64,000 nucleotides of DNA from Corynebacterium halotolerans YIM 70093 = DSM 44683 (GTDB lineage: Bacteria > Actinomycetota > Actinomycetes > Mycobacteriales > Mycobacteriaceae): NCBI RefSeq assembly GCF_000341345.1, contig NC_020302.1, forward strand, positions 848,075 through 912,074, read 5' to 3'. Of the stretch, positions 1,939 to 59,905 are shown in pieces. The notes under the pieces were generated by a model. It saw nothing but the letters and a program-made list of their open reading frames with translations. It was not told where the DNA came from and made no database searches. A program made the position numbers and the translations under genes. Positions within the stretch are counted from its first letter, which is position 1. Every line of letters begins with the position of its first letter.

Positions 1939-3085
1939 GCATTTTGACCGTTACGTCGAGAACATGGTGGACGAGGCCACCGCGGACGGTGTGGAGAACT
2001 ACCTGCGGGAGGAGCCCGCCGACGCCCGTCGCTATGAGCGCGTCGAGGAGTCCTGGCCGCAACCGACCACCCGGCCCGAGCCCGAGCGCAGTGCCGGCGC
2101 CTTCCAGACCGCGAAGGCCGCGCGTAAGTACTGGATCTTCCTGGGCAGCATGGGCGCCGCGGGCCTCCTGTTCGCCTTCGGCCTGCTGGCGTGGGGCAAC
2201 CCGATGCCGTTCGGCACCGAGCAGTTCTGGCTGATCGCTGAACGCCGCATGGACGCCGTGATCGCCATGGCGGTCGTGGCCCTGTGCCAGGCGGTGGCCA
2301 CCGTCTGCTTCCAGACGGTGACGAACAACCGCATCATCACGCCGTCGATCATGGGCTTCGAGTCCCTCTACACCGCGATCCACACCTCGACGATCTACTT
2401 CTTCGGCGCAGCGGGCCTGGTCGCCGCCCGCACGACCGAGACGTTCCTCGTCCAGCTGGTGCTGATGGTGGGACTGTCGGTCGTCCTGTACTCGTGGCTG
2501 CTGACCGGGCGTCACGCGAACATGCACGCGATGCTGCTCGTCGGCATCATCATCGGTGGCGGTCTCGGCTCGGTGTCCACATTCATGCAGCGCATGCTCA
2601 CCCCGAGCGAGTTCGACGTGCTCACCGCCCGGCTGTTCGGCTCCGTCAACAACGCGGACCCGGAATACTATCCCATCGCCATCCCACTCGTGCTCGTCGC
2701 CGCCGGGCTGATCTACCTCAACTCCCGCAAGCTCAACGTGCTGGCGCTGGGACGCGACACCGCGACCAACCTGGGGCTGAACCACAAGTTCCTGTCCATC
2801 GCCGTTCTCGTTCTCGTCGCCGTGCTCATGGCGGTGTCCACCGCGCTGGTCGGGCCGATGACCTTCCTCGGTTTTCTTGTGGCGACCCTTGCCTACCAGT
2901 TCGCCGACACCTACGATCACCGTTATCTGTTCCCCATGGCGGTGGTCACGGCCTTTGTGGTGCTCACAGGCTCTTATTTCGTGATGAACCACATCTTCTA
3001 CGCGCAGGGCGTCGTCTCGATCATCATCGAACTCATCGGCGGTTCCGTGTTCCTCTTCGTCATCCTCAGAAAGGGTCGACTGTGA
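1931..3085 (+). CDS. Iron-siderophore ABC transporter permease (FecCD/BtuC family), second subunit
   Basis: This 384-residue FecCD-type permease probably pairs with the preceding subunit. It has an unusually long, charged cytoplasmic N-terminal region of about 60 residues before the first membrane segment (KYWIFLGSMGAAGLLFAFG). The family motif for helix 2 appears as AERRMDAVIAMAVVALCQAV, and the ATPase-coupling segment as ALGRDTATNLGLN. Translation starts at GTG 1931 inside the end of the upstream permease gene. The stop overlaps the ATPase start as GTGA. The N-terminal extension has no recognised domain. Confidence 0.88.
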   Translation: MDKHFDRYVENMVDEATADGVENYLREEPADARRYERVEESWPQPTTRPEPERSAGAFQTAKAARKYWIFLGSMGAAGLLFAFGLLAWGNPMPFGTEQFWLIAERRMDAVIAMAVVALCQAVATVCFQTVTNNRIITPSIMGFESLYTAIHTSTIYFFGAAGLVAARTTETFLVQLVLMVGLSVVLYSWLLTGRHANMHAMLLVGIIIGGGLGSVSTFMQRMLTPSEFDVLTARLFGSVNNADPEYYPIAIPLVLVAAGLIYLNSRKLNVLALGRDTATNLGLNHKFLSIAVLVLVAVLMAVSTALVGPMTFLGFLVATLAYQFADTYDHRYLFPMAVVTAFVVLTGSYFVMNHIFYAQGVVSIIIELIGGSVFLFVILRKGRL

Positions 3086-3837
3086 TTACGCTGACCAATG
3101 TCCGCAAGGAGTACAACAGCGAGGTCTCCATTGGCCCCGTGAACCTGGAGATCCCCGCCGGCGGCATCACCTCGCTCGTCGGACCCAACGGTGCGGGCAA
3201 GTCGACGCTGCTGACGATGATCGGCCGTCTGCTCGGCATGGACTCCGGCGACATCAAGATCGCCCAGTACGACGTGTCGACCACGAAGTCGAAGGACCTG
3301 GCCAAGATCCTGTCCATCCTCCGCCAGGAGAACCACTTCATCACCAAGCTGACCGTGCGTCAGCTCGTGGGCTTCGGTCGCTTCCCGTACTCCCAGGGTC
3401 GTCTGACCGCCGAGGACGAGAAGATCATCTCCCGTTACATCGACTTCCTGCACCTGACCGAGCTGGAGGACCGCTACCTCGACCAGCTCTCCGGCGGTCA
3501 GCGTCAGCGTGCCTACGTCGCCATGGTCCTGTGCCAGGAGACGGATTACGTTCTGCTGGATGAGCCGCTGAACAACCTGGACATCGCCCACTCCGTCCAG
3601 ATGATGCAGCACCTGCGTTCCGCGGCGCAGGAGTTCGGCCGCACCATCATCGTCGTGCTCCACGACATCAACTTCGCCGCCCGGTACTCCGACTTCATCT
3701 GTGCGGTGAAGTCCGGCGAGATCGTGGAGTTCGGCACCCCGGAGCAGGTCATGCAGGATCACATCCTCACCGATATCTTCAACACCCCGGTCAAGGTCAT
3801 CGAGGGCCCGGACGGGCTGCTGGCCTGCTACCACTAG
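3082..3837 (+). CDS. Iron-siderophore ABC transporter ATP-binding protein
   Basis: A 251-residue ABC ATPase of the FepC/FhuC class. It shows Walker A GPNGAGKST (residues 34-42), signature LSGGQ (136-140), Walker B YVLLDEP (156-162) and the switch histidine in VVLHD (about 194). It energises the two permeases encoded immediately upstream. The GTG start overlaps the permease stop by 4 nt (GTGA), so the operon is tightly coupled. A very strong intrinsic terminator begins 23 nt after the stop codon. Confidence 0.95.
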   Translation: MITLTNVRKEYNSEVSIGPVNLEIPAGGITSLVGPNGAGKSTLLTMIGRLLGMDSGDIKIAQYDVSTTKSKDLAKILSILRQENHFITKLTVRQLVGFGRFPYSQGRLTAEDEKIISRYIDFLHLTELEDRYLDQLSGGQRQRAYVAMVLCQETDYVLLDEPLNNLDIAHSVQMMQHLRSAAQEFGRTIIVVLHDINFAARYSDFICAVKSGEIVEFGTPEQVMQDHILTDIFNTPVKVIEGPDGLLACYH

Positions 3838-3841
3838 GTAC

Positions 3842-4798
3842 ATGACTGATTGGCTCGACAGACACCAGGTAGTTCTCTACCTGGTGTCGATTTTTTTCGG
3901 ACTGCTGGTCTCCACCGTGCCGGAGGCCACGGTGTTGGGCGCGGCCGTCAACCCGGTGCTCGGACTGTTGCTCTTCGCGACCTTCCTCTCGGTTCCACTC
4001 ACCCGGCTCCGGATGGATCTCCGCTTCGTCGGCGCCCTCGCGCTGCTGAACTTCGTCCTCGTTCCGCTCGTTGTCTGGGTGCTCACGTTTCCGCTGCGTG
4101 ACGACGCCGTCCTGCTCACCGCCGCACTTCTCGTGCTGCTCGCGCCGTGCATCGACTACGTCATCGCCTTCACCGGCCTGGCGGGAGGCGCCCGCGAACG
4201 GCTGCTCGCCGCCACTCCGCTCCTGCTGCTGGCGCAGATGGTGCTGCTTCCGCTCTATCTCCGGCTGTTCATCGGACCGGAAATCGCCGGGGTGCTGTCC
4301 GCTGGCCCCTTCCTCGAGGCATTTCTCTGGCTGATCCTGCTGCCCCTCGGCGGGGCATGGCTCGTGCAGGTGATGGAATCGCGCTCCCGCATCGCGCGGG
4401 GCGTATCGATGGCCGCCTCCTCCGGAATGGTCGTGTTGATGATGGCCACGCTGTTCGTGGTGATCGCCGGCCATGCCGGGGGCGTGGGAGAGCGGTTGCC
4501 GGACCTCGGTCTCGTGATCGGCGTCTACGTCGCCTTCGCGGTGGCCATGAACGTCATCGGATGGGGACTGTCCCGGAGGCTTGGTTTCGGTACGGAGGAC
4601 CGGGTGGCCCTGACCTTCAGCGCAGTCACGCGCAACTCGTTGGTCATCCTGCCCTTCGCCCTCGCGTTGCCGGCAGGTTACGAACTAGCCCCGATCGTGG
4701 TCGTCACCCAGACGATGGTGGAACTGGTCGCGATGGTGGTGATGGTCCGGGCCCTTCCGGCGCTCTCCCAAAGAAAACGGATTTACCTGCGGATTTGA
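3842..4798 (+). CDS. Bile acid:sodium symporter / arsenite-efflux (BASS/Acr3-like) family membrane protein
   Basis: A 318-residue protein with about ten hydrophobic segments. Family-typical stretches include RHQVVLYLVSIFFGLL in helix 1 and LLLFATFLSVPLTRL near residue 45. A central APCIDYVIAFTGLAGG element (about residues 100-115) and a late SAVTRNSLVILPFALALP segment carry the polar residues usual for the substrate path. The substrate is uncertain: the subfamily contains transporters of organic anions and arsenite. ATG 3842 has no clear Shine-Dalgarno. A GTG at 3932 is preceded by GGAGG, but starting there would delete the conserved first helix. A terminator overlaps codons 7-19, so expression must come from read-through or a promoter not identified here. 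Confidence 0.75.
   Translation: MTDWLDRHQVVLYLVSIFFGLLVSTVPEATVLGAAVNPVLGLLLFATFLSVPLTRLRMDLRFVGALALLNFVLVPLVVWVLTFPLRDDAVLLTAALLVLLAPCIDYVIAFTGLAGGARERLLAATPLLLLAQMVLLPLYLRLFIGPEIAGVLSAGPFLEAFLWLILLPLGGAWLVQVMESRSRIARGVSMAASSGMVVLMMATLFVVIAGHAGGVGERLPDLGLVIGVYVAFAVAMNVIGWGLSRRLGFGTEDRVALTFSAVTRNSLVILPFALALPAGYELAPIVVVTQTMVELVAMVVMVRALPALSQRKRIYLRI
3861..3897 (+). terminator. Strong intrinsic terminator lying inside the next coding region
   Basis: A perfect 12-bp stem (3861-3872 with 3877-3888) has a TTCT loop and is followed two bases later by seven T residues (3891-3897). It ends the siderophore operon. It also lies wholly within codons 7-19 of the downstream membrane-protein gene, so the same DNA encodes part of that protein's first transmembrane helix. 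Confidence 0.92.
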
Positions 4799-4895
4799 TT
4801 TAAGTTCCGGCTCTGCGTACATTTAAGGACGTCGCCGAGAGCAGGTAGCCGAAAGGTTACAGAGCAGAAGCGACAATGAACTTCAGAACAACGAG

Positions 4896-4924
4896 TTGAC
4901 ACGTTCAACTCAATGCAGTAAGTT
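4896..4924 (+). promoter_or_regulatory. Candidate rRNA operon promoter
   Basis: A consensus -35 TTGACA (4896-4901) and a -10-like TAAGTT (4919-4924) are separated by the optimal 17 bp. The -35 box sits within the perfect inverted repeat GAGTTGA-CACGT-TCAACTC (4893-4911), which could be an operator or chance. Confidence 0.7.
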
Positions 4925-4983
4925 CGATCAAGCCGCTTTCGAGCAGTGACGGTACAAAAAGTTGCTGGTTCGGGGTGTGCGGA

Positions 4984-5010
4984 TGTTGTGTGAGAACTCA
5001 ATAGTGTGCC
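4984..5010 (+). promoter_or_regulatory. boxA-like antitermination element in 16S leader
   Basis: The segment contains TGTTGTGTGAGAACT, and the same 15 bases recur in the 16S-23S spacer at 7212-7226. Actinobacterial rRNA leaders carry this kind of boxA-like sequence, which binds NusB-NusE to prevent early termination. The role is inferred from position and repetition. Confidence 0.6.
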
Positions 5011-5400
5011 AATGTACTTTTTATTTTTGTCTGTGACGTTGGTTGTGTCGTTGGTTGCCCGGCCGGCCGGTCCCTGTGGGGATGGGTTGGTGGGTGCGTG
5101 CCGGGTGGCCTTGTGGAAATGGGGCCACTGTAAAGAAATGACACTGCCACTTGGTGGTGGTGTGTGTTTCCGGTGCGTGGACGTGCAACACAATTTGGTT
5201 GCGGATGCCGGCCCTTGTTTTCAGCCCCGTCGGGTGTGGGGGTCGGTGGAAGTTTATGCAGTAAAATTATTTTGGACAATCATGAGCGCCACGGCTTTCG
5301 GGTCGTGGTGTGCTGGTTGTTCGTTTTGTTGGGTTCGGGCTTTCTACGCCTGGAAACATCCCTTCTTGAGACGGGTCTTGTGCTTGTTTTGAGGTTTGTT

Positions 5401-10395
<4,995 letters not shown>

Positions 10396-58207: not shown

Positions 58208-59014
58208 CTATACCAGCGGTTCCACCGCCCACGACCCGGGAAGTTGCGGCTCGGGTAGCAGTACGGACGGATCGTGACCGTAGTCGAGCACCAGTCGGGC
58301 CCGGTGCAGACGGCGGGCGAGCGGGAACACGGCGGGCGAGGAGGGCCCGGCGACCACGCGTCGAGTCTCCGCGAGCCACAGGGGTCCGGCGACGGCGTCA
58401 TCGTCCACGCGCACCGGGGAAGGGGAGGAGGACAGCAGAGCCGGATCCCCGGCGTCCCGCACCGCGCGGATGAGCCGGGAGTACTCGGCGGACAGGGCGT
58501 CCTCCTCTTGCTCCGCGGCCATCAGATGCAGCGTGACCAGCCACCGCGACGCTGGCACCGGTGGGGTGGCGGCGGGCTCCTCCGGGGTGGGATCCCACCG
58601 GGGAGCGGCACCGGTCCACGCCTGGCCAGGCACGAACGGCTCGACGTCCACCGCACTGAGGAAGCCGGGGAACGGATCGGGTCCGGCATGGTCCGCGAAG
58701 AACAGCTTCTCGTGGACCTCCTCATCGAAGTCCGGATTGACGCTGATGACGCAGTGCACCGTGAACAGCTCGAGGGACTCCGGTTCGGGGATGTCGCAGC
58801 GCAGTGCCTCATAGACGGCCGTGCAGCGCAGGTCCCACAGAAAGAACTCGTTGTCCTCCGGGGTGGGGAGACCGGAGATGAAGTGGATCCGGGCTTGTTC
58901 CGCCGGGATCCCGTTCAGCCGCTCGACGTAGAGTTTCTGGGCCCGGGCCAGCCGGTCAGGATGAGCAACGAAGGTCGTGGTGGCCAGGCGCGTGGGCCAG
59001 GGGGAGTCAGGCAT
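58208..59014 (-). CDS. Hypothetical protein cotranscribed with a PD-(D/E)XK-type protein
   Basis: A 268-residue soluble protein not recognised as a known family. It starts MPDSPWPTRLATTTFVAHPD, has ELFTVHCVISVNPDFDEEVH and ASRWLVTLHLMAAEQEEDAL segments, and ends LPGSWAVEPLV. Tryptophan- and proline-rich, with no signal peptide or membrane helix. Its ATG overlaps the upstream nuclease-like gene by 8 nt, so the two proteins are probably made together. It converges with the aldehyde dehydrogenase gene, leaving only 3 nt. Confidence 0.65.
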   Translation of the reverse strand: MPDSPWPTRLATTTFVAHPDRLARAQKLYVERLNGIPAEQARIHFISGLPTPEDNEFFLWDLRCTAVYEALRCDIPEPESLELFTVHCVISVNPDFDEEVHEKLFFADHAGPDPFPGFLSAVDVEPFVPGQAWTGAAPRWDPTPEEPAATPPVPASRWLVTLHLMAAEQEEDALSAEYSRLIRAVRDAGDPALLSSSPSPVRVDDDAVAGPLWLAETRRVVAGPSSPAVFPLARRLHRARLVLDYGHDPSVLLPEPQLPGSWAVEPLV

Positions 59015-59483
59015 GACGCCGCCCGGGTATCCGCTCCGTCGCGGGAACCTCGGCGTTGAGCTTCCGGAGTCTGCTCAGGCTGATGATCGCAGCACCGTTG
59101 TTCTGGAACCGACCCAGCTGGGAGTGCACCCGGTCATATGGGCCGTTGTAGACGACCTCGTGTTCGAGATCGGGCTCCTTCGACAACTTCAGGACAATCA
59201 ACGATGCGGCGACACCATCAGAGGTCCGTCGGATGGCGACGCCAGAGGTCCCGTAGGTGGCCTTGATCTCCACCGTGCGGCCGTCCGGGGTCAGCGCATC
59301 GTGGCCGGCGGTGGAGGCGTTGACCAGCGCGACGTCGAAAAGCGTCGCCGCAGTGACCTCCCCCAGAGAGCCGACGAGGTGGCCGTCGGGGGTGAACTTC
59401 CGCCCCGGGTAAAGTTCCTCGAGCTGATCGACGATCGCGTGCAGCTCGCTCACCAGCTGACCAGTGCGTGCCAGGCGCTCCAT
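59007..59483 (-). CDS. PD-(D/E)XK nuclease-like protein (DUF6998-like)
   Basis: A 158-residue protein. HLVGSLGEVTAATLFDVAL carries E42; HDALTPDGRTVEIKATYG gives the metal-ion motif D67-x4-E72-x-K74, typical of PD-(D/E)XK nucleases. Later strands are AASLIVLKLS and AAIISLSRLRKL. I could not place it in a characterised family; nuclease function is inferred from the motif only. ATG 59483 lies 4 nt after the chorismate mutase stop and overlaps the next gene by 8 nt, so it is the middle gene of a three-gene unit. Confidence 0.7.
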   Translation of the reverse strand: MERLARTGQLVSELHAIVDQLEELYPGRKFTPDGHLVGSLGEVTAATLFDVALVNASTAGHDALTPDGRTVEIKATYGTSGVAIRRTSDGVAASLIVLKLSKEPDLEHEVVYNGPYDRVHSQLGRFQNNGAAIISLSRLRKLNAEVPATERIPGRRHA

Positions 59484-59487
59484 TGGC

Positions 59488-59796
59488 TCAGCCCAGCCGA
59501 CCGCGCCCCAGCCGCAGCAGAATGGCGGCCAGCGCCGGGCCCTCCTCGCCGAGTTCGTCGCGGAACTGGTTGATGATGGCGACCTCACGGGTGTGCACCA
59601 GGCGGGTGCCGCCCGAGCCCATGCGGGTGCGGCCGATGGCCTGGGAGACCTCGGTGCGGCGCTTGACCGCCTCCAGGATCACGCGGTCGAGGCGGTCGAT
59701 CTCCTGGCGGTATTTCTGGATCTCCGCGTCCGAGAGCGGGTCGTCGGTGCCGGAGGGCATCCGGATCTCGAAGTTCTGGTCAGCGGCGTCGGTCAT
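59488..59796 (-). CDS. csm: Chorismate mutase (AroQ type)
   Basis: A 102-residue all-helical chorismate mutase that makes prephenate for phenylalanine and tyrosine. The core reads IQKYRQEIDRLDRVILEAVK, RRTEVSQAIGRTR, VHTREVAIINQFRDEL and ALAAILLRLGRGRLG, with the active-site arginines in helices 1 and 2. The position next to pcrA and near pgi matches C. glutamicum csm. ATG 59796 lies 7 nt after CACAAT, a probable leaderless mRNA. A PD-(D/E)XK-like gene follows after 4 nt. Confidence 0.92.
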   Translation of the reverse strand: MTDAADQNFEIRMPSGTDDPLSDAEIQKYRQEIDRLDRVILEAVKRRTEVSQAIGRTRMGSGGTRLVHTREVAIINQFRDELGEEGPALAAILLRLGRGRLG

Positions 59797-59905
59797 GGGT
59801 GTTATTGTGCCACGCACCCCGCCGTTTCCGGGCTTCGGCGGGGGTTGGGTCCCCACGTCCGTGGAATCGGTCGTGTCCACCGCGCCTAGTAGGTTGTTAG
59901 TCATC

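Follow-up and report, generated by a model that had tools for sequence, protein, structure and literature searches.

The window, a stretch of 64,000 nucleotides from Corynebacterium halotolerans YIM 70093 (a genome of 3.22 Mb in two contigs, with a chromosome of 3,135,752 bases), holds on its minus strand a compact group of three genes. These are csm, encoding a chorismate mutase of 102 aa (59488-59796; NF005894, E=2.6e-45; TIGR01808, 5.7e-35); a DUF6998 gene, encoding a predicted PvuII/BisI-type PD-(D/E)XK nuclease of 158 aa (59007-59483; assigned by PF22522, an AF2 model and the NhoI/Eco15I fold); and the P1 gene (58208-59014), the 268-aa product of which belongs, by BLAST, profile and internal repeat, to a two-domain Corynebacterium family that may be of an orphan immunity-like kind. 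Four nucleotides separate csm from the DUF6998 gene (59484-59487), and the DUF6998 and P1 genes overlap by 8 nt (59007-59014); the open reading frame coordinates and the NF005894 match thus agree with the packed layout described in an earlier, sequence-only reading of this DNA. The group is flanked by genes for an aldehyde dehydrogenase and for a UvrD/PcrA helicase, both named by sight.

A -10-like element, TGGCACAAT, lies at 59804-59812 on the minus strand, placed for a leaderless csm start, with 7 nt between its end and the csm ATG; its function as a promoter is suggested by motif conservation. In 18 of 19 csm loci compared, TGGCANNAT stands immediately upstream of the csm start, in a comparison in which the alignment of the 19th row, and of a few more, begins within csm, so that exact distances are available for part of the loci. 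This conservation makes a shared leaderless promoter plausible, and the leaderless housekeeping promoter of the sequence-only reading is to be taken as plausible and unproved. The csm gene itself was found in 199 of 201 Corynebacterium genomes. The DUF6998 and P1 genes are probably transcribed from the conserved csm promoter, on the presumption that all three genes are co-transcribed. Both accessory genes have relatives elsewhere and so are not chance reading frames, and both have a lower GC3 (0.81 for the DUF6998 gene and 0.84 for the P1 gene) than the neighbors pgi, aldh, csm, pcrA, and an FtsX-like gene (0.89-0.95). As a side observation, TGGCACAAT upstream of csm is conserved within Corynebacterium and could serve as a marker of leaderless promoters.

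The profile search called for in the sequence-only reading places the 158-aa protein in a named family, PF22522 (DUF6998), which it matches at full length (model positions 2-136 of 136; E=3.4e-44; 150.5 bits against a curated cut-off of 27) and which is described solely as a family of unknown function. The name DUF6998 was absent from the literature searched, and among the matches listed for BisI together with Corynebacterium there were unrelated word matches alone. An AF2 model of the protein, made from an alignment of six rows (the protein itself plus five relatives from viral contigs), has a mean pLDDT of 85.2, with an average of 65 over residues 31-40. When this model was searched with Foldseek, rows 1 to 11 were all Eco15I or NhoI (Eco15I_Ntd, 2.1e-4; NhoI, 7.5e-4), at 13-24% identity, and PvuII came next at E 0.033. 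VIA-align gave the same order, with Z scores of 11.5 for both NhoI and Eco15I (140-142 residues), 9.8 for PvuII, and at most 8.4 for other folds; the likeness to PvuII spans model residues 2-143 and includes the N-terminal helix. Judged from the model and the alignments, the 158-aa protein has both its fold and an E/D/(E,Q)xK active site in common with the BisI family enzymes NhoI and Eco15I_Ntd.

A single-sequence search with the 158-aa protein does not reach Eco15I significantly (E=0.57). The profile of 12 DUF6998 proteins, here called A2, does so at E=1e-6 in the PDB, with a weak match to NhoI (0.34). The PADLOC models of methyl-directed nucleases (mREase_II) match 11 of the 12 proteins at E<=1, with 2.2e-8 for the best and 1.7e-4 for the window's protein. 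An hhalign comparison of DUF6998 with an alignment of actinobacterial BisI-like proteins gave 97.7% (E 1.6e-12); the latter are clear BisI relatives (Eco15I, 1.9e-43; NhoI, 1.7e-41) and were recruited through weak, low-scoring PF22522 matches of the phylum search, so that both groups were met via the same Pfam model. In a viral structure library the best E was 1.7e-3, and the matches were restriction endonuclease-like proteins and unnamed phage proteins. The assignment to a PD-(D/E)XK-type protein made in the sequence-only reading is borne out, with an intact active site and with fold and profile closest to restriction enzymes of defense.

The catalytic residues, all encoded on the minus strand, can be followed through the alignments. 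E42 (codon at 59358-59360), the acidic residue of helix alpha-1, is E in 12/12 of A2 and aligns with the Eco15I Glu; D62 (59298-59300), the "PD" aspartate, here in HD, is D in 12/12 and aligns with the Eco15I AD; E72-I73-K74 (59262-59270) make up the (D/E)XK motif, in which K74 is invariant (12/12) and position 72 is E in five proteins and Q in seven. The catalytic motif is therefore D62-x9-E72-x-K74. The D-x4-E-x-K motif of the sequence-only reading is literally present (D67-E72-K74), although no more than 8 of the 12 family members have an Asp at position 67. A fold lacking a nuclease site, which that reading had named as grounds for dropping the idea, is not what the model presents, as the NhoI/Eco15I fold comes with E42, D62, E72, and K74 kept.

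Excerpts of the BisI paper give as catalytic residues the alpha-1 Glu, the Asp of WD or AD, and QVK or QIK, the last being the form that the (D/E)XK motif takes in Eco15I/NhoI, and give (H/R)(V/I/T/M) as the BisI-family residues touching the inner methyl groups (PMC11347163). As far as those excerpts go, this dipeptide precedes an N-A, N-G, or R-G step, and the chain numbering of Eco15I and NhoI agrees with that of the paper by constant offsets. Counted from the alignments, the methyl-contact pair is H134-V135 in the Eco15I chain and H141-V142 in the NhoI chain. The motif occurs in none of the 12 DUF6998 proteins; the window protein has Q127-N128 (codons at 59100-59105, minus strand) in its place, and it also differs from the BisI enzymes in having E for Q in (D/E)XK. 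G114-P115 is present in 12/12 where Eco15I has I-P. On these alignments, DUF6998 appears to have kept the cutting machinery and changed the methyl-reading machinery. Because the BisI methyl-contact dipeptide is missing, we regard DUF6998 as a sister group of the BisI family rather than a member of it, probably with a similar mode of action. In excerpts of a study of distant BisI homologs, Esp638I and RdeR2I recognize other sites and are still m5C dependent (PMC8281217).

The DUF6998 gene is sporadic in its distribution. It was found in 2 of 201 Corynebacterium genomes, in a single one of 14 named controls (Bacillus subtilis), in 19 of 396 genomes of the phylum search (18 over the cut-off), in 11 plasmid records, and in five distinct putative viral contigs; a tblastn search with the 158-aa protein gave no match at 1e-5 in 50,697 phage records. 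These counts support a rare, accessory gene and not a housekeeping one, and the universal conservation that the sequence-only reading had set against its own proposal was not observed. The neighbors of the gene elsewhere are mixed, many of them without a link to defense; they include, on a plasmid of Roseomonas, a type ISP enzyme and, at other loci, DUF2326 and toxin-antitoxin genes. In the second Corynebacterium genome (G164), a protein 64% identical is encoded directly behind csm, and the next gene is for a methyltransferase of the general small-molecule type. Separately, the putative viral contig L132 carries at 2904-6453 an hsdM gene (Pfam), an hsdS-like gene (by sight), and a DUF6998 gene apparently overlapping the hsdS-like end, which has the look of a type I system to which a small PD-(D/E)XK nuclease has been added.

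P1 was said in the sequence-only reading to be of no known family, and the searches agree: there was no match over the cut-off in Pfam and none at E<=10 in NCBIfam, PADLOC, PHROGs, or the PDB, a MORF-domain match (E 0.15; 12.4 bits, cut-off 27) being at chance level. Relatives occur in 36 of 201 Corynebacterium genomes by BLAST and in 48 of 201 by profile, single-domain matches included; ten named Corynebacterium records carry them, and a scan of genome contigs with P1 alone gave no relative. An order-level search of 298 genomes found the family in only two, both Corynebacterium, so no member outside the genus was met in the genomes sampled. The protein consists of two related halves (hhalign internal repeat, E 2.6e-5, probability 75%), and its N-terminal domain (residues 8-124; 58643-58993, minus strand) is homologous to stand-alone proteins of 119-158 aa. 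Three csm-linked members (G085, G018, and G019) retain just the first half as an open frame, and in G085 the similarity continues past a stop. The P1 structure model is poor (pLDDT 52.1), and its best Foldseek E is a weak 0.036, with several ferredoxin-like folds among the rows. We had suspected that P1 repeats the fold of a neighboring monooxygenase-like gene; no result supports this, and the P1 model is poor.

What else lies in the slot behind csm? We compared 79 csm loci, namely, the window, 6 picked as carriers, and 72 from a ranked csm list, and found none of the three gene types (DUF6998, P1, or methyltransferase) in 71, P1 in 4, DUF6998 with P1 in the window alone, and, in one locus each, DUF6998 with a methyltransferase, P1 with a methyltransferase, and a partial methyltransferase match by itself; as carriers were included on purpose, 8/79 overstates the frequency of filled slots. 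Over the whole set of 201 genomes, csm has P1 next to it in 6 and DUF6998 in 2. A tree of the helicase from 19 genomes puts G164 and G019 together (support 100/100), with the genome of the window on another branch. G019 has a gene of the 268-aa family in its slot where G164 has DUF6998. On this evidence the slot was occupied on more than one occasion, or was occupied and later vacated. Two independent accessory genes share the place behind csm.

A lead on P1 comes from its smaller relatives. The P1 profile also finds 25 single-domain matches, several of them in one genome (G188). A model built from 21 single-domain proteins has P1 as its only match among 425 window open reading frames (E=2.2e-9), in a test that excluded P1 from the model but is less independent than this suggests, since the 21 proteins had been recruited by a P1-containing profile; hhalign of this model with the P1 N-domain alignment gave 98.7%. 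Fifteen of the 25 matches are at most 200 nt from a gene for a secreted-like protein of ~110 aa with two invariant Cys and a signal-peptide-like start (judged by eye), and 14 of them follow it immediately in the same orientation, with 14-37 nt between the matched parts. Neither Pfam nor NCBIfam has a family that the secreted protein matches over the cut-off.

We speculate that P1 is an orphan immunity-like protein and that its N-domain family neutralizes the small secreted corynebacterial protein, a tentative idea that we think possible without thinking it probable. Besides the adjacency in 15/25 and the several copies in G188, genomes with a single-domain relative tend to have the secreted protein (11/15 genomes; Fisher p=1e-7, uncorrected for relatedness). 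The 37 main-group matches (34 two-domain, P1 included, and 3 csm-linked reduced) have a secreted-protein gene within 10 kb in 0/37 cases, as is the case for orphan immunity genes; the absence of such a gene fits other roles equally well. Against the idea, 31 of 46 secreted-protein matches have no P1-family neighbor in the profile list (one of these, in G022, has a weaker one), the main group shows no link at the genome level (6/36 genomes; p=0.80), and the toxicity of the secreted protein is itself putative. P1's own genome has no secreted-protein match, and P1 is thus without the adjacent toxin gene by which an immunity protein would be recognized. By analogy, the arrangement of the single-domain genes fits a small putative toxin with its immunity protein, and P1 an orphan of that kind. 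The nearest known counterparts are orphan immunity genes and acquired interbacterial defense clusters, which in the papers listed concern mostly type VI secretion; the likeness is that P1 is a solitary member of a family with single-domain relatives beside a secreted-protein gene, and the difference is that P1's relatives match no known immunity family in Pfam or NCBIfam and that the toxin is putative. The P1 family points to a candidate antibacterial protein secreted by Corynebacterium and to the matching immunity protein.

The genes just described form an undescribed Corynebacterium cassette, in which a ~110-aa protein with the core TVKCQVV...GNPIVGFVYGNHP...HKRHC directly precedes a single-domain P1 relative (L211:5126-5982, L212:5514-6276, L214:5610-6798, L217:4718-5524, L221:4788-5559, L223:2927-4117 and 5592-6307, and L224:5075-6230); in L214, L223, and L224 it is preceded by a further apparently secreted protein of ~145-160 aa. 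At L209:9503-11567 there are four small genes (142-149 aa), three of which match the P1 profile and the fourth of which looks alike; as in immunity arrays, the row adjoins a degenerate copy of the secreted-protein gene (E 0.00098).

Returning to the nuclease, we searched for a methyltransferase that might protect the host. The neighbors of the gene are csm, P1, the aldehyde dehydrogenase gene, and the UvrD/PcrA helicase gene, with no adjacent cognate methyltransferase of the sort that marks a type II restriction-modification system. Of three families searched (PF00145, PF01555, and PF02384), none has a match in the window; the C5-cytosine DNA methyltransferase family PF00145 has none in the host genome, and the host's one PF01555 and two PF02384 matches lie outside the window. 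We also considered and rejected a DNA-methyltransferase partner at other loci: the genes beside DUF6998 match small-molecule-type Pfam models, Methyltransf_23/12/25/11 in G164 and Methyltransf_24/_3 on a Tsukamurella plasmid, and no DNA-methylase family. A methyltransferase gene similar to that of G164 is present in G019, which has no DUF6998. With no accompanying cognate methyltransferase, the nuclease most likely depends on a modification that the host lacks, an argument from absence over three families. We therefore think it rather probable that the 158-aa gene encodes a solitary, most likely modification-dependent PD-(D/E)XK restriction nuclease, carried as accessory cargo behind csm.

In this model, the nuclease would act as a homodimer of the PvuII/BisI fold, Mg2+ would be held by E42, D62, and E72, and, together with K74, the enzyme would cut both strands of incoming DNA in a defensive role. 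The host would be spared because cleavage would require a base modification that host DNA does not have, of the 5-methylcytosine type or another, and the site or modification read would differ from the Gm5CNGC of BisI. The DUF6998 gene would have been gained as cargo in the csm slot and be read from the conserved csm promoter, and the P1 gene would be an independent accessory gene of that slot and no subunit of the nuclease. If this is true, DUF6998 gains a likely function, as nucleases of scattered occurrence akin to the BisI enzymes, and may yield new cutters specific for modified DNA.

Could the enzyme instead be a plain restriction or DNA-processing nuclease that is independent of modification, has a non-BisI specificity, and is kept harmless by a distant methyltransferase or by low expression? 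The loss of (H/R)(V/I/T/M) in 12/12 DUF6998 proteins may mean that the need for methylated DNA is lost as well, leaving an ordinary or low-specificity nuclease. PvuII, a cutter of unmodified sites that acts with a cognate methyltransferase, follows not far behind in fold similarity (Z 9.8); PF01555 and PF02384 methyltransferases are available elsewhere in the host; and on one viral contig a type I hsdM and an hsdS-like gene accompany DUF6998. However, no PF01555 or PF02384 methyltransferase adjoins the window's nuclease gene, a difference from PvuII in that no cognate methyltransferase was found for the 158-aa protein, and the profile matches (Eco15I and PADLOC mREase_II) favor the modification-dependent branch. 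We consider a plain nuclease unlikely.

A broader proposal joins both genes: the csm slot would collect stand-alone defense genes on a leaderless promoter, here a BisI-sister DUF6998 nuclease that reads another modification or site and a two-domain orphan immunity protein, P1, directed against a so far undescribed family of small secreted corynebacterial two-cysteine toxins, the producers of which would carry a single-domain immunity gene directly behind the toxin gene. Taken whole, this is quite unlikely.

Are the DUF6998 and P1 genes, then, a pair? The sequence-only reading saw in them the best candidate for an unknown two-component system and suggested checking whether they co-occur. Their common strand and 8-nt overlap, and the fact that both occur less often than csm and have a lower GC3, would suit a two-gene defense system of nuclease and P1. 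Nonetheless, the two occur together in only 1 of 201 Corynebacterium genomes, that of the window; the P1 family occurs without DUF6998 in 35 genomes and DUF6998 without the P1 family in 1. The P1 profile has no match in 38 loci from other DUF6998 searches, P1 lies behind csm without DUF6998 in five other genomes, and P1 relatives away from csm stand alone, e.g., behind gyrB, between pnp and dapB, or near a dicarboxylate-transporter-like gene (by sight). On this distribution we reject a conserved pair, the genes showing no linkage across genomes, and a two-gene system is highly improbable. Weaker still, despite the tight packing behind csm, is the idea that either gene serves aromatic amino-acid synthesis with csm, which we deem exceedingly improbable given that 71 of the 79 csm loci have no DUF6998, P1, or methyltransferase gene behind csm and that in other bacteria DUF6998 is carried by plasmids and viral contigs.

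Two further observations concern what follows csm. In L086, L087, and L088, the csm-linked P1 relatives consist of the first domain only, and in L086 and L087 the matched start overlaps the csm end. In nine other loci (L151, L157, L170, L185, L190, L193, L198, L201, and L204), large genes on the same strand lie 48-193 nt behind csm; they belong to a family of 361-362 aa starting MDTRNIIKHSDPIRHDD and to one of 448-488 aa starting MNAVL, transporter-like by eye.
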